Origin: Acidobacteria bacterium 28-9
Lineage (GTDB): Bacteria > Acidobacteriota > Blastocatellia > Pyrinomonadales > Pyrinomonadaceae
Direction: 5' to 3'
Assembly (NCBI GenBank): GCA_002050355.1
Contig: MWYY01000058.1
Location: 32,933 to 96,932 of the forward strand
Length of the DNA: 64,000 nucleotides
In this document: piece after piece, positions 3,977-37,094 of the stretch
Position numbering within the stretch: the stretch's first letter is position 1
Layout: each line of letters starts with the position of its first letter
Notes under the pieces: generated by a model
Seen by the model: only the letters and a program-made list of their open reading frames with translations
Database searches by the model: none
Told to the model about the DNA's origin: nothing
Made by a program: the position numbers and the translations under genes

Positions 3977-4486
3977 ATGAACATTTCAATCAAACAATTA
4001 ACGGAAAATGATTGGCGAGAATTTTCTCTAATTCGTCTGAAAGCTCTACAGACAGACCCATTTGTCTTCGGCTCAAATTACGAAAAAGAATCACAAATGA
4101 CCGAAGCCGGTTGGCGAAGCCGTCTGCAAGCGAAAGACAACGCGATATTTTTGATTTACGCGGGCGATACGCCCATCGGGATGACTTGCGTTTCGGTTGA
4201 CCGCGACGACCCGACAAGGAAAACCGCGCTTCTTTGGGGTTCGTGGCTCGCGCCCCACGCTCGCGGGAAAGGTTTGTCGGAGTTGATGTATCAAACCAGA
4301 ATCAATTGGGCGAAAAAGCAACCGACGGTTGAGAAAATCATCGTTTCGCATCGCGCCTCAAATGTTTCGTCAAAATATGCCAATCAAAAACATGGATTTG
4401 TTTTCACGCACAAAACCGAAAAAGTCTGGACGGACGGTATAACGGAAGACGAAATCTTTTACGAACTCGAAATCAAAAACGCATAA
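3977..4486 (+). CDS. GNAT family N-acetyltransferase
   Basis: GNAT pattern: ENDWREFSLIRLKAL..., WLAPHARGKGLSELM. Confidence 0.85.
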   Translation: MNISIKQLTENDWREFSLIRLKALQTDPFVFGSNYEKESQMTEAGWRSRLQAKDNAIFLIYAGDTPIGMTCVSVDRDDPTRKTALLWGSWLAPHARGKGLSELMYQTRINWAKKQPTVEKIIVSHRASNVSSKYANQKHGFVFTHKTEKVWTDGITEDEIFYELEIKNA

Positions 4487-12458: not shown

Positions 12459-12510
12459 CTTCTTCACGCCTTTTTTATATCTTTTTTTGTAACCTAATTG
12501 CTTGATAATT

Positions 12511-12642
12511 TGTCGCCGAAGATCTTGTGAAAAAAATCACGGGTGGGAACCAATCGTTTGGGGCTAAACGTTTTTGAGAAAAACGCGGAAGACTTCTTTG
12601 CTTCCAGCACGTCAGCTAACCTCGCAGGCAAGAAAGGAAGGA
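12511..12642 (+). promoter_or_regulatory. c-di-AMP (ydaO/yuaA-type) riboswitch
   Basis: Family-like conserved blocks CACGGGTGGGAACCAA, TTTGGGGCTAAA, CGTCAGCTAACCTCGCAGGC...GGAAGG. Confidence 0.82.
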
Positions 12643-12656
12643 CAGGGAATTTTACC

Positions 12657-29822: not shown

Positions 29823-29936
29823 GTCTAACGGCACAGTTGACACGGGGCGAAACCAGCTACACGCAATTCTGAGTTTAACGTAGGACGTTTTTAAGAAAAT
29901 AGCTGTCTCGCGCTCACGTCCAATGATTTGTTCGAC
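29823..29936 (-). repeat. attC-like site C1
   Basis: GTCTAAC...GTTCGAC ends; imperfect palindrome with TTGAC versus TTGGAC extrahelical base; shared core with C2 and C3. Confidence 0.78.
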
Positions 29937-29945
29937 AGCCCGTGA

Positions 29946-30611
29946 TTAGAAGAAATCGTTTTCACGGTCAAAACTATCTCTGTCGGGCGCACAACAATCG
30001 TCTTTGCCTAACTCGACTTGCGGACTTGTTATATTTACTCCGTCTTTTAATGTAATTTCAAATTGATTTGCTTTCTTTCCCTCTGGCATTGTGGCTTTGC
30101 TTCCAAAGCGTTCTTTTGATTCTGCAAACTCACCCTGACACGAAAGCCACCAAATAAAAGGAAAACGCAAATCGATAGAAGCGTTTGGTTCTACGTCAAA
30201 CAATACAATTTTGTTATCGGTAGTTTCGATTAGCAGATAGCTTATTCGGTTAGCCGAGTTGTTTGTAACTTTAATACTGCCAAAAATGTTTTCTGCATCT
30301 TTGGCGTTTCTGCCTATTCTCAAGATTGAATCCGAACTCCAAGAGTTATCAGGATACCGACTTTTAAAGTCACCGTCGAACCAATCGCCTGTGTAAAGCA
30401 GTTTCTGATTTACAAATTGCTTCTCGTTTTGATAAGCGTTCAAATATACACGACGTTCGATAAGATAATTCTCCTGAACAATTTCGACTTTAGTTTGGTT
30501 AGCTGGCGATTCGGTTGAATAAAGTTTTTCACTCCAATAAGCGCAAGCCGAATTTAGAGCAATAAAGGCGATAATTGAAAAAGCAATAATGGTGCGGTTT
30601 TTATTACTCAT
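29946..30611 (-). CDS. Cassette-borne putative lipoprotein, unknown function
   Basis: Hydrophobic N-terminus ending LNSAC; stop abuts C1. Confidence 0.7.
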   Translation of the reverse strand: MSNKNRTIIAFSIIAFIALNSACAYWSEKLYSTESPANQTKVEIVQENYLIERRVYLNAYQNEKQFVNQKLLYTGDWFDGDFKSRYPDNSWSSDSILRIGRNAKDAENIFGSIKVTNNSANRISYLLIETTDNKIVLFDVEPNASIDLRFPFIWWLSCQGEFAESKERFGSKATMPEGKKANQFEITLKDGVNITSPQVELGKDDCCAPDRDSFDRENDFF

Positions 30612-30641: not shown

Positions 30642-30724
30642 GTCGAACTTTGTATTCTAATGAATTACGGCTTTCTTATACAGAATTTTTATACTGTAAT
30701 TCCAAAGTCAAAGTCAATAAAAAT
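30642..30724 (-). promoter_or_regulatory. attI/Pc-like boundary B1
   Basis: Minus strand TTGACT-18-TATAAA ... AATACAAAGTTCGAC; highly similar to B2. Confidence 0.68.
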
Positions 30725-30889
30725 TCTAATTATCACTTTACTCCAGGATCGGAAATAATTCAGTGTAAATTTTTACGCTTAATAATTTCCGCAAAGTTTT
30801 TCCGGTTCATATTCTTGACGCTGCGGCGCGTTTGCTCTAACTTGATTCAAGTCTTTTACAAATTTTTCCTGAAATAATAAAATTCATCA

Positions 30890-31744
30890 ATGACAAATCG
30901 TATTCACCGCGAAGTAATCGGCGGTCATCTTCTGGTTATCGGCGGCGCGGAAGATAAATATAACGAGCGGCGAATCTTGAAAAAATTTCTTTCTCTGGCG
31001 GGCGAAGAAAATGCAGAGGTTTTAATTGTACCGGTAGCTTCGGATTTTCCCGAGTTTTCGGCGGACGTTTATGTTCAAGCCTTTCGCAATCTCGGCGTTA
31101 AACATCCGCGCGTATTGCGCGCTACTTCGCGGCAGGACGTTTTTGAAGCTGACGCCGAAGCCTTACTCGACGGCGTTACCGGTGTTTTCATAACCGGCGG
31201 CGACCAGATGCGGCTGGTGTCGGTTCTCGGCGGCACGAATTTCGCGCAGATATTAAGCGAGATGGTTTCTGAAACGAATATCGTCGTCGCCGGAACGAGC
31301 GCGGGTGCTGCCGGAATGAGCGCTTCGATGATTGTGCGCGGCGAATCTACTCCGCACCCGCACAAAAATTCCGTGCGTCTCTCGCCGGGTTTGAGTTTCT
31401 TGAAAAACATCATTATCGACCAGCATTTTACGGAACGCGGGCGCATCAGCCGGTTGATTACGGCGGTTTCTTACAATCCGTATAATCTCGGCATCGGGAT
31501 TGACGAAAACACGGCAATAATTCTCGACAATGAAGGAATTTTAGAAGTTTTCGGCAAAGGCACGGTTACAATAGTCGACGGCTCGCAGATAACTTATAAC
31601 GAAATTGCTGAAGTAAGCGAATATCAACCGTTTAGCGTATGCGGCGTGCAGCTTCATATCCTGGGCGACGGATTAAATTACGATTACTTTGCACGGAATC
31701 CCATACGAATAACCAATGAATTTTTACTGCCTGACATAGAATAA
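30890..31744 (+). CDS. cphB: Cyanophycinase
   Basis: GGHLLVIGGAEDK, FITGGDQMRLV, VVAGTSAGAAGMS. Confidence 0.93.
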   Translation: MTNRIHREVIGGHLLVIGGAEDKYNERRILKKFLSLAGEENAEVLIVPVASDFPEFSADVYVQAFRNLGVKHPRVLRATSRQDVFEADAEALLDGVTGVFITGGDQMRLVSVLGGTNFAQILSEMVSETNIVVAGTSAGAAGMSASMIVRGESTPHPHKNSVRLSPGLSFLKNIIIDQHFTERGRISRLITAVSYNPYNLGIGIDENTAIILDNEGILEVFGKGTVTIVDGSQITYNEIAEVSEYQPFSVCGVQLHILGDGLNYDYFARNPIRITNEFLLPDIE

Positions 31745-31806: not shown

Positions 31807-34443
31807 ATGAAAATTCTCGAAATCAGAACGCTTCGCGGTCCGAATTATTGGAGCGGTTACTGGAAAAAGCTGATAATAATGCGGCTCGACATTGAAGACT
31901 ACGAGCAGAAGCCGACCGACAAAATCGAAGGTTTTTACGAGCGAATGACGGAGGTTTTGCCGTCGCTCGCTTCGCACGGATGCAGCTATCAGGAAGCCGG
32001 CGGATTTATGCGGCGCGTCGAAGAAGGAACTTGGGCGGGACACGCCATCGAGCATTTTGCGCTGGAAATGCAGTCGCTCGCCGGAATGGATGTCGGTTAC
32101 GGCAGAACGCGCGAAACATCCGAGCCGGGAATTTACAACGTCGTTTTTGCTTATCAGGAAGAAGAAGTAGGACGATTTACGGCTCGCGCCGCAGTTGAAT
32201 TTTTTCTCGATTTAGCCGAAGGAAAATCGGTCAAAGAAATAAAAAAACGCCTCGCCGAAGACATCCAGCGAATGCGCGAAATCCGCGAGGAAGTTCGCTT
32301 CGGACCAAGCACGGCTTCGATTGTCGAAGAATCCGAATCGCGCAATATTCCGTTTATACGGCTCAATAACCAATCGCTCGTCCAGCTCGGTTACGGCATT
32401 CACCAGCAGAGAATTCAAGCGACGACAACCGGCAAAACCAATATGATTGCGGTTGACATCGCGGCAAACAAACACGCAGCTAAAAAGCTTCTGAGTGAAA
32501 TGGGCGTTCCGGTTCCGATAGGCTTCAGCATCCGCGACGAAGACGAACTGGAAAGAACAATCGAATCAATCAGCTTTCCCGTCGTAATAAAACCGCTCGA
32601 CGGCAATCACGGCAAGGGCGCAACCGTGGGCATCGAAACTTTGGAAGAAGCGCTCACGGCATTTCAAAAAGCGAAGGAATATTCGCGCAATGTCATTGTC
32701 GAAAAAATGCTTGTCGGAGGCGATTTTCGCGCGCTTGTTGTCAATAATGATTTGATTGCCGTTGCCGAGCGGATTCCGGCGCACGTAATCGGCGACGGCA
32801 AAAATACCATCGAACAATTGATTGACGAAACAAACGCCGACCCGCGGCGCGGCTACGGACACGAAAATGTGCTGACGTTAATTGACGTTGACGAGCAAAC
32901 GGAGAGACTATTACGGGCGAAAAATTACACGCTCGAAACAATTTTGCCGGCAGGCGAAATGCTGCATTTGAAAACGACGGCTAACATTTCAACCGGTGGC
33001 ACGGCGATTGACCGCACGGATGAAGTTCATCCCGAAAACATTTTTCTGTTTGAACGTATTGCAAAAATCGTCGGCTTGGATGTCGCCGGAATTGACGTTA
33101 TCGCGCCGAATGTTTCCGAACCTTTGAGCGAAAACGGCGGCGGAATTATCGAAATAAATGCCGCGCCCGGTTTTCGTATGCACCTCGCGCCCAGCGAAGG
33201 CATCGGCAGAAACGTCGCCGAGCATGTCGTCAATATGCTGTTTCCGCCCGGAAAACCGGCTCGCATTCCGATTATCGCCATCACGGGAACAAACGGCAAA
33301 ACGACGACGACACGCCTGGTCGCGCACATCTTGCGCGGCAGCGGTTTGACCGTCGGTTTTACGACGACCGACGGCACTTATATTCAAAACAATCAAATCA
33401 CGGCGGGCGACAACACTGGACCTGTTTCGGCGCAATTGGTTTTAAAAGACCCTTCGGTTCAAGTCGCGGTTTTGGAAACGGCACGCGGCGGAATCATTCG
33501 CTCGGGTTTGGGATTTGACCATTGCGACATCGGAATTGTAACAAACATCGCCGCCGACCATTTAGGCTTGAAAGACATCAACACTCTGGAAGATCTTGCG
33601 CGAGTCAAATCGGTTATTCCGCGCTCGGTTTCGTCGAAAGGTTTTGCCGTCCTTAATGCCGAAGACGAAAATGTTTTCTGGATGCGAAAATATGTTGACG
33701 GTGAAGTCGTGTATTTTTCGATGGATGAAACGAATAAAAATATTCAAAAACACGCGCGGCGCGGTGGTGTTTCCTGCATTTTTGAAAACGGTTATGTAAC
33801 GATCTTAAAAGGCAAATGGAAAGTGCGCGTTGAAAAGGCGATAAACATTCCGCTCACTTACGGCGGGCGGGCGGAATTTATGATTCAAAACGTTTTGGCG
33901 GCGACTTTGGCGTGTTTCGTTCACAAAGTTTCGCTCGAAGACATCCGCGTCGGTTTAACGACCTTTACGCCTTCGACGGCACAAACGCCCGGACGAATGA
34001 ATTTTATCGAGATAAAAGATTTTACCGTTTTGATGGATTTCGCCCACAATCCGGCGGGAATAAAAGGCTTGCAAAAGTTCATCAACCAACTTTCATACAA
34101 AACGAGAACCGGAATTTTAAGCGGCGTCGGCGACCGGCGCGACGAAGATTTACGCGAAATGGGCAAACTCGCTGCGGAAACCTTCGATACTTTAATTATC
34201 CGTCGCGGCGATTACCTGCGCGGACGCACGGAAGAAAACGTTATTAATCTTCTGCAAGAGGGAATAAAAGAAAGCGGTAAAAACGTTCCGGTAAAAATTG
34301 TCCACGAATCGAAAGAAGCAATTGATTACGCTTTTGAAAACGCCGAAGCAGGCGATTTGATTGTAATATTAGCCGACACGGTGAGCAAAGATATTGAATA
34401 CGTTAATAAATATAGAGACGGACTAAACGAAAATAAAAATTGA
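31807..34443 (+). CDS. cphA: Cyanophycin synthetase
   Basis: ATP-grasp and Mur-ligase-like regions; ITGTNGKTTTTRLVAHIL. Confidence 0.95.
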   Translation: MKILEIRTLRGPNYWSGYWKKLIIMRLDIEDYEQKPTDKIEGFYERMTEVLPSLASHGCSYQEAGGFMRRVEEGTWAGHAIEHFALEMQSLAGMDVGYGRTRETSEPGIYNVVFAYQEEEVGRFTARAAVEFFLDLAEGKSVKEIKKRLAEDIQRMREIREEVRFGPSTASIVEESESRNIPFIRLNNQSLVQLGYGIHQQRIQATTTGKTNMIAVDIAANKHAAKKLLSEMGVPVPIGFSIRDEDELERTIESISFPVVIKPLDGNHGKGATVGIETLEEALTAFQKAKEYSRNVIVEKMLVGGDFRALVVNNDLIAVAERIPAHVIGDGKNTIEQLIDETNADPRRGYGHENVLTLIDVDEQTERLLRAKNYTLETILPAGEMLHLKTTANISTGGTAIDRTDEVHPENIFLFERIAKIVGLDVAGIDVIAPNVSEPLSENGGGIIEINAAPGFRMHLAPSEGIGRNVAEHVVNMLFPPGKPARIPIIAITGTNGKTTTTRLVAHILRGSGLTVGFTTTDGTYIQNNQITAGDNTGPVSAQLVLKDPSVQVAVLETARGGIIRSGLGFDHCDIGIVTNIAADHLGLKDINTLEDLARVKSVIPRSVSSKGFAVLNAEDENVFWMRKYVDGEVVYFSMDETNKNIQKHARRGGVSCIFENGYVTILKGKWKVRVEKAINIPLTYGGRAEFMIQNVLAATLACFVHKVSLEDIRVGLTTFTPSTAQTPGRMNFIEIKDFTVLMDFAHNPAGIKGLQKFINQLSYKTRTGILSGVGDRRDEDLREMGKLAAETFDTLIIRRGDYLRGRTEENVINLLQEGIKESGKNVPVKIVHESKEAIDYAFENAEAGDLIVILADTVSKDIEYVNKYRDGLNENKN

Positions 34444-34551
34444 ACGGCGGAGTTGACGTGGCGCGAAACCATCTACACGCCAGCAAAGTATAACAGACAA
34501 ACTAAATAACAAAGTAGATATTTCTGCTTCACGTCCAATAAATTGTTAGAC
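34439..34551 (-). repeat. attC-like site C2
   Basis: TTGAACGGCGGAGTTGACGTGGCGCGAAACC...CACGTCCAATAAATTGTTAGAC. Confidence 0.75.
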
Positions 34552-34579
34552 AGTGTTTCACTTACAATAATTACTTGAA

Positions 34580-34607
34580 TTGACGTCCATTGAGTTGTTC
34601 GACAGCG
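34580..34607 (-). repeat. Extra attC-like half site (R''/L'')
   Basis: TTGACGTCCATTGAGTTGTTCGACAGCG matches right arms of C1-C3. Confidence 0.65.
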
Positions 34608-35219: not shown

Positions 35220-35332
35220 GTCGAACGGTTGAGATGACGTGGGGCGAAACCGAATACACGCAACGTCGAGTTAAAAAGACAACGTAATAAAAGAGTCGCT
35301 GTTTCGTCCTCACGTCCAATGACTTGTTCGGC
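35220..35332 (-). repeat. attC-like site C3
   Basis: GTCGAACGG...GATGACGTGGGGCGAAACC...CTCACGTCCAATGACTTGTTCGGC. Confidence 0.78.
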
Positions 35333-35338
35333 TCGGCG

Positions 35339-35860
35339 TTATTTTCCATACGCCATTTCTGCCACAACTACGGGCAAGTTTGTTTCAATCAAAATGCGTT
35401 TATCAAGACCGCGCAAATACGCGCCTTCACCTTGTAGGGTTACTCCACAATCCGACAATGCCGCTTGTGCTTCTGTCGGAATACGCTCAACTGCCATTTT
35501 TATTTCGCCTAGAATTATTTCAACTTCCTTTGAAATTGCCGCGCTAATTTCGGCTTCCGTGACAGTCACGATTCGTGGAACTCTGGCTTCCGTATCGCGT
35601 CCGCGCACTTCCATTGAAAGCGTGTCGTCTTCGGGAAACGCGCTGCCAGCAGCGATTGTGATGGCTTCGGCTGTTCGCTCGCCAATGAGCAAGTTGAGAT
35701 TCCGACGAAAATGCTCGATAACCGCTTCGCCAAAAGTTTGAGTTCCAACGGGAAAACTGTGCGAATAAACAGTGCGTCCGTCAACTTCGGCGACAACTTC
35801 CGATTCTGTGATGCCGATGCTGGCTGTTACAAGCGTCGGTTTAAAGTTTTCAACTTTCAT
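35339..35860 (-). CDS. Truncated MreB-like (actin-fold domain II) protein (cassette)
   Basis: HFRRNLNLLIGERTAEAITIAAGSAFPEDDTLSMEVRGRDTEARVPRIVTVTEAEI...LQGEGAYLRGLDKRILIETNLPVVVAE resembles MreB C-terminal half. Confidence 0.75.
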   Translation of the reverse strand: MKVENFKPTLVTASIGITESEVVAEVDGRTVYSHSFPVGTQTFGEAVIEHFRRNLNLLIGERTAEAITIAAGSAFPEDDTLSMEVRGRDTEARVPRIVTVTEAEISAAISKEVEIILGEIKMAVERIPTEAQAALSDCGVTLQGEGAYLRGLDKRILIETNLPVVVAEMAYGK

Positions 35861-35890: not shown

Positions 35891-35973
35891 GCCGAACTTT
35901 GTATTCTGCTGAATTAAAGTTTTCTTAGACCGAATTTTTTATAAGGCTTTTTTGGTCGAAAGTCAATAAAAAG
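35891..35973 (-). promoter_or_regulatory. attI/Pc-like boundary B2
   Basis: Minus strand TTGACT-17-TATAAA ... AATACAAAGTTCGGC; similar to B1. Confidence 0.68.
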
Positions 35974-36014
35974 CTTGATTTTGATTAGTGATTGAAGTAT
36001 CTTCGTGCGTAAAT

Positions 36015-36050
36015 AAAAAATTCCGCCTAAATTTTTAGGCGGAATTTTTT
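36015..36050. terminator. Terminator hairpin overlapping 3' end of iaaA
   Basis: AAAATTCCGCCTAAATTTTTAGGCGGAATTTTTTT. Confidence 0.65.
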
Positions 36051-37094
36051 TAGAAGCGGAAAATTCCGGTAAATATCAATAGCAGGTTTGTCGCCTGAAG
36101 CGATAAAGGCGCGGTACATTCCATCAGAATTAAACGGCAGCGCGAGGTTGCCGAGCGCGTCTACAGCAATCAAACCGCCTTCGCCGCCGCTGGCTTGAAG
36201 TTTCCCAACCACTTCGCGTGCCGCATCTTTTAGGCTCAAATTTCTATATTTCATTAGCGCCGCAACGTCATAAGCTGCAACCGCGCGCATAAAAAATTCG
36301 CCGTGTCCGGTGCAGGACACGGCGCACGTTTGGTTGTCGGCGTAGGTTCCCGCGCCGACAATCGGCGTGTCGCCGATGCGTCCGAATTTCTTGTTCGTCA
36401 TTCCGCCGGTGGAAGTCGCGGCGGCAATGTTTCCGGAAACATCGCAAGCCACCGCGCCGACAGTTCCGAGTGATTTACGATTTGTAATTTGCGTTTTGCG
36501 ATTTGCGTTTGGGTCTTCGGTCTTCGGTTTCTGATTTTTAGCTTTTGGAATTTTAATCTTTGACTTTGAGTTTTTGACTGTGGTTTTGGTGTGGTCGAGT
36601 TCGATAACGCCTTGTGCACGTGCTTTTAAAAATTGTTGGTAGCGCAAATCGGTGAAAAAATAATCGTCAGGTTCAAATTCAGCATTGATTGTTCGGGCGA
36701 ATTCGGTGGCGCCGTCGCCGGCAAGCAAAACGTGTTCGGTTTTTTCCATTACGGCGCGCGCCAGCTTTATCGGATTTTTTATGTTTCGCACAAAAGCGAC
36801 TGCGCCCGCTTTTCCCGTTTTTCCGTCCATCAAGCAGGCATCCATTTCGTTTTTTCCGTCGTGAGCGAAGACTGCGCCGCGTCCGGCATTGAACAGCGGA
36901 CAATTTTCTAATTCGACAACCGACGCTTCAACCGCATCGTTGGCACTTCCGCCGCTTTGCAAAATTTCCCAACCGCAGCCCAAAGCATTTTGCAGCCCCG
37001 TGCGGTATTCGCGCTCTAAATCTTCTGACATCGAACTGCGTTCAATCGTTCCAGCGCCGCCGTGAACAGCAAGGGCAATTTTATTTTTGTTCAT
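36027..37094 (-). CDS. iaaA: Isoaspartyl peptidase/L-asparaginase (Ntn hydrolase)
   Basis: ALAVHGGAGTIERS, autocleavage-type GTVGAVACD, TSTGGMTNKKFGRIGDTPIVGAGTYAD. Confidence 0.93.
   Translation of the reverse strand: MNKNKIALAVHGGAGTIERSSMSEDLEREYRTGLQNALGCGWEILQSGGSANDAVEASVVELENCPLFNAGRGAVFAHDGKNEMDACLMDGKTGKAGAVAFVRNIKNPIKLARAVMEKTEHVLLAGDGATEFARTINAEFEPDDYFFTDLRYQQFLKARAQGVIELDHTKTTVKNSKSKIKIPKAKNQKPKTEDPNANRKTQITNRKSLGTVGAVACDVSGNIAAATSTGGMTNKKFGRIGDTPIVGAGTYADNQTCAVSCTGHGEFFMRAVAAYDVAALMKYRNLSLKDAAREVVGKLQASGGEGGLIAVDALGNLALPFNSDGMYRAFIASGDKPAIDIYRNFPLLKKFRLKI

Follow-up and report, generated by a model that had tools for sequence, protein, structure and literature searches.

Within the window, the 64,000-nucleotide stretch of DNA analysed here from the soil-type bacterium Acidobacteria bacterium 28-9, a minus-strand open reading frame that runs from ATG to stop encodes a protein of 173 residues (P1) corresponding to domain II of the bacterial actin MreB; the plus strand is interrupted by stops in that frame. 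The gene occupies an integron cassette spanning about 35896 to 35226 (671 bp). Since only 35 bp lie ahead of the ATG and 6 bp separate the stop codon from the recombination site attC, the cassette has no room for MreB domain I. The coordinates of the features are collected in the following table.

Table: Features of the P1 locus, integrase gene remnants of the same genome (G000) and related cassettes of a congeneric genome (G002)
Feature	Position	Strand	Remarks
P1 gene, standalone MreB domain II (IIA+IIB), 173 aa	35339..35860	minus	ORF, Pfam, NCBIfam, phmmer, AlphaFold2, Foldseek
attC of the P1 cassette, 113 nt	35220..35332	minus	R'' GCCGAAC, R' GTTCGAC
attI-like site ending at crossover G^TT (35897-35895)	35895..35930	minus	8 loci in 4 genomes of the genus carry it exactly or nearly so
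Promoter-like TTGACT-17-TATAAA before the cassette	35931..35970 (approximate)	minus	read in the sequence; conserved in the 8-copy alignment
Second cassette, DinB_2 superfamily protein, 172 aa	34662..35180	minus	downstream of the P1 cassette
attC of the second (DinB_2) cassette	34439..34551	minus	overlaps at its end with the final bases of the cyanophycin-synthetase-like gene
Broken or partial integron integrase genes, G000	C43:16116-16774, C47:35311-35907, C21:86775-86987		L059, L058, L060
P2 cassette, G002	between attC L062 14516-14624 and 15183-15295
P3 cassette, G002:C151	L063:2094-4094		attCs 1928-2040 and 3982-4094; P3 is the third of three genes

The attC of the P1 cassette carries both R'' and R' boxes, and its bottom strand, folded as DNA, gave a long hairpin of the anticipated form, with additional bases left unpaired, the stability of which was not above that of shuffled sequence (z -1.05). 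A 31-nt pattern from the core of that attC, with at most 3 mismatches allowed, occurred at 56 sites in this genome and was present in nine of the ten genomes of the genus; the reversed control of the pattern gave 0 matches. The alignment of 20 attC sites had a mean column identity of 79% and showed a common stem, with changes on both sides in four pairs. On the opposite side of the P1 gene, the sequence leading up to the crossover point G^TT (TTTATTGACTT ... TATAAAAATTCGGTCTAAGAAAACTTTAATTCAGCAGAATACAAAG), 35 bp upstream of the ATG, is common to eight loci in four genomes, and the copies diverge immediately past GTT. The element was read as attI plus a promoter because, at one of the copies (G003:C17), a divergent intI pseudogene is located at a distance of about 137 bp. 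The promoter-like sequence was not listed by a mechanical promoter consensus scan. The P1 gene is the first, promoter-proximal cassette behind the attI-like site.

Two attI-like sites with built-in promoters, at 30646-30740 and 35895-35990 on the minus strand, were found in the window, neither of them adjoining intI. With one to three copies in each of the four genomes, such dispersed landing sites look unusual. The first cassette behind the site at 30646-30740 (window positions 29824-30611, minus strand) holds a lipoprotein-like ORF of 221 residues (29946-30611), for which no Pfam match was obtained, and an attC from 29936. Just before the attC of the DinB_2 cassette there is a remnant of another attC left half (GTCGAACAACTCAATGGACGTCA) at 34552-34603 on the minus strand. 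The cassettes are flanked by genes named, from reading the sequence only, cyanophycinase-like (30890-31744), cyanophycin-synthetase-like (31807-34443) and isoaspartyl-peptidase-like (36027-37094). Elsewhere in the window, a c-di-AMP riboswitch lies at 12504-12645 on the plus strand (Rfam RF00379, 60.4 bits).

One short gene followed by an attC and preceded by a promoter-bearing attI-like site is the arrangement found in chromosomal integron cassettes, and the genomes of the genus carry intI together with dozens of attCs, the integrase being above the family cut-off in nine of ten. The P1 array differs from these integrons in that no intI, and hence no integrase of the same integron, was found next to it, and only broken or partial copies were found in its own genome, a metagenome-assembled genome (MAG) 87% complete in which an intact copy could lie in the missing part. 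Integron cassettes are known to occur in arrays that lack intI.

As judged by profile and pairwise comparison, the similarity of P1 to MreB is far beyond chance. The Pfam profile MreB_Mbl matched with E=1.9e-32, residues 8-169 of P1 corresponding to positions 146-306 only, of 327, and NCBIfam PRK13927 gave 1.5e-35; phmmer against solved MreBs gave values down to 1.4e-26, the alignments extending from residue 14-16 to residue 168-169. The TIGR00904 score, 113.9 bits, was far under the curated cut-off of 365.75 bits. In MreB, the chain runs through domain II (IIA, IIB) without interruption, domain I being split into a part before and a part after it, and this, together with the profile range, makes P1 precisely domain II. 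Of the two-domain layout of MreB (IA, IB, IIA and IIB around a nucleotide cleft), P1 has IIA and IIB alone. The initial annotation had described a cassette-borne protein matching the second half of MreB; the peptides on which it relied were found in the 173-residue product, the cassette is bounded by the two recombination sites, and the missing parts proved to be all of domain I (IA+IB). The host's own MreB shares 44% identity with P1 over domain II; its gene lies on a different contig and adjoins mreC- and mreD-like genes. A frameshift remnant or contig-edge piece of mreB was rejected on the grounds of the separate cassette and of the host mreB being located elsewhere. A RodZ-like protein is also encoded by the host (HTH_25, 82.6 bits), and therefore candidate targets in the elongation machinery exist.

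The structure predicted with AlphaFold2 for P1, from an alignment of four sequences only, had a pLDDT of 88.4 and a pTM of 0.82, with pLDDT values below 50 at both termini only. In the Foldseek comparison of this model with the PDB the first 25 entries were all of the MreB family, with TM values of 0.85-0.90 on query length, followed by FtsA, Hsp70/DnaK, PilM, MamK and others; a viral library gave weaker matches only, mostly Hsp70-like. The IIA/IIB fold is confidently predicted to be kept in P1, in agreement with the structural match to MreB domain II proposed earlier as a check.

Two more standalone domain-II proteins, P2 and P3, were found on separate contigs of one congeneric genome (G002, a MAG 79% complete), the P2 contig matching the public record MWZA01000170.1, 'Acidobacteria bacterium 5-1'. 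P2 is 57% identical to P1, with an alignment from end to end, and its predicted model had a pLDDT of 85.9. P3 is 30% identical to P1 and matched MreB_Mbl with E=8e-19 over profile positions 147-304. Both genes lie in cassettes with attCs on both sides, and for the other two proteins of the P3 cassette, whose N termini are signal-like, Pfam gave no significant match. The three proteins formed one clade relative to the MreBs (branch support 95/94) and share the changes A190G, G191T, I202F, Y206L, L260I and N302G, which are nearly absent from MreBs. As far as these sequences indicate, P1, P2 and P3 are a small cassette-only family within the genomes searched, probably of single origin; the latter is favoured and not proven, the branch of P3 being long. 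Over 168 codons P1 and P2 have no stops or frameshifts and differ at 52, 31 and 85 first, second and third codon positions, respectively. The resulting dN of 0.31 and dS of 1.10 give a dN/dS of about 0.28, an estimate from this one pair according to which P1 and P2 are under purifying selection.

The standalone domain occurred in two of the ten genomes of the genus, all other matches there being full-length MreB or contig-edge MreB (the C114 copy of the host). The full match list of 40 related genomes contained no other standalone domain-II gene, the rest being full-length, contig-edge or broken. Profile searches of 120 genomes of the family and 396 of the phylum gave no further close member, although a divergence like that of P3 would escape them. 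A scan of genome contigs with only two peptide patterns found P2 and two full-length MreBs. This extent of the family is that seen in genomes, and members beyond the genus may be missed. Among the candidates, the short frames G032:C508, G036:C466, G137:C663 and G050:C85 were rejected because they run off contig ends, and G038:C5 (L053) because it represents the 3' half of an mreB, with GGGA and the C-terminal part still present. A phage or plasmid origin was likewise rejected, as the matches in those collections did not reach 60% identity and those with an annotation, among the ones listed, were ordinary mreB. The IMG/VR scans gave no relative, and a search of viral contigs with the host MreB, meant to deepen the alignment, found nothing.

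The residues of the three proteins were compared with those of 32 MreBs in E. coli numbering. D165, a Mg ligand of MreB, is S, R and Y in P1, P2 and P3, respectively; positions 168-170, GGT in MreB, read ITE, KAA and ENL; and GGGA (295-298) reads GEGA, GEGA and GKGS, with G296 changed to E, E and K. All these positions are invariant or nearly so in the 32 MreBs, and the nucleotide-binding residues are accordingly lacking in the cassette proteins. Position 170, occupied by E, A and L, corresponds to T167 of Caulobacter MreB, the catalytic Thr (PMC4051119). The DIGGGTT phosphate motif was indeed found replaced, by SIGITES in P1, and the suggestion of a nucleotide-independent protein made in the initial annotation is supported by the sequences, as D165, G168-G169, T170 and G296 are lost in all three. 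Of the columns conserved in MreB, P1 and P2 keep 2/17 in the phosphate-loop hairpin versus 23/50 elsewhere (Fisher p 0.019).

The contact surfaces are altered as well. P280 is T, S and L, and D285, invariant in MreBs and reported to be important for the MreB-FtsZ interaction (PMC5624674), is A, A and T. Replacement of its neighbour S284 by Asp disrupts the longitudinal contacts as well as rod shape, and S283D/S284D breaks MreB filaments (PMC4051119). On the flat side, E262 is K, N and G. ATP hydrolysis and MreB-like polymerisation would therefore not be expected of P1, since the residues for nucleotide binding and for longitudinal contacts are lost. The positions kept are mainly structural-looking, e.g., N207, I210, G211, T214, G223, R239, G295, G297, L300, L303 and D304. 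E319, the marker of the face to which RodZ binds on E. coli MreB (PMC5624674), corresponds to E in P1 and to D in P2, and P3 stops short of this position; RodZ binds subdomain IIA (PMC4929429). Because this acidic residue is kept in two of the three members, a partner in the elongasome may still be the target.

Our preferred guess on these grounds is that P1 is a monomeric, nucleotide-free binding module recruited from MreB, a decoy or adaptor that would engage a protein normally docking on MreB domain II, e.g., RodZ or another elongasome partner, and would thereby modulate cell elongation. We assign this reading a probability of roughly 0.38. It is suggested by the domain-exact boundaries of P1 and P3, and the alignment of P2 over its whole length, by the RodZ-like protein of the host and by the acidic residue at 319; the attCs that flank both P2 and P3, the confident folds, the dN/dS value, the single clade and the lost motifs also count for it. 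It is weakened by the end of P3 before E319, by the fact that D or E at this position could be kept by chance, and by the family comprising three sequences from two MAGs. The boldest reading, a mobile half-actin excised from the bacterial cytoskeleton, without ATP binding or polymerisation, that integrons pass around and that acts in trans to regulate the machinery of cell elongation or serves as its decoy, must be regarded as rather doubtful.

It is also possible, if tentatively so, that domain II, once taken over from MreB, has come to bind a partner unrelated to cell shape, only its fold being conserved. The MreB surfaces known from the literature (nucleotide, longitudinal and flat side) are changed and the retained invariant residues look structural, the family has the six shared changes of its own, and P3 is encoded in one cassette with the two signal-like proteins; the retention of the RodZ-contact acid in two of the three members speaks against this explanation. 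The initial annotation had also considered an inhibitor of host MreB. A free domain II could insert into or cap the host MreB filaments as a dominant negative and block elongation, and P1 is itself an MreB domain with 44% identity to that of the host, subdomain IIA being one side of the MreB longitudinal contact (PMC9195046). Inhibition by copied MreB-MreB contacts is nevertheless not supported, because no member retains P280 or the invariant D285 of the contact helix and E262 is K, N or G; nor does the P1 cassette hold an antitoxin-like partner gene. We consider this explanation unlikely, and a filament poison of this kind appears, from the residues concerned, less likely than a domain whose fold has been retained and which acts on a different partner. 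A non-functional mreB fragment captured as a cassette and drifting, for which one may cite that silent cassettes can sit in integron arrays and that the family is rare, is very improbable and already disfavoured by the selection on the intact P1 and P2 frames, the confident fold, the domain-exact boundaries in three members and the promoter-proximal position.

Compared with the MreB/Mbl bacterial actins (PF06723, TIGR00904), P1 is homologous in sequence and fold over domain II, but it has no domain I and, like P2 and P3, has lost the residues for nucleotide binding and for the longitudinal and FtsZ contacts. The toxins CbtA/YeeV, YkfI and YpjF, which target MreB, are likewise small, separately encoded proteins, and P1 could similarly act on the Rod system; they differ in that they bind the flat side of MreB (PMC5624674), whereas P1 is a piece of MreB. 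CbtA-like toxins have a paired antitoxin, and the P1 cassette holds one gene. To our knowledge, none of these toxins is actin-derived. Text searches of the literature, for MreB in integron cassettes and for fragments of MreB, gave nothing relevant, and no cassette-encoded piece of MreB was seen to be described there.

Proteins of the actin fold are ATP machines built of two domains. A standalone domain II that is under selection and has no cleft would mean that one half of an actin can survive as an independent protein, and that parts of the bacterial cytoskeleton are spread by integrons. With the domain apparently kept intact by selection and the residues for ATP and filaments lost, P1 probably does something other than filament building, and as a small protein it lends itself to finding out which of the contacts made by MreB domain II function independently.
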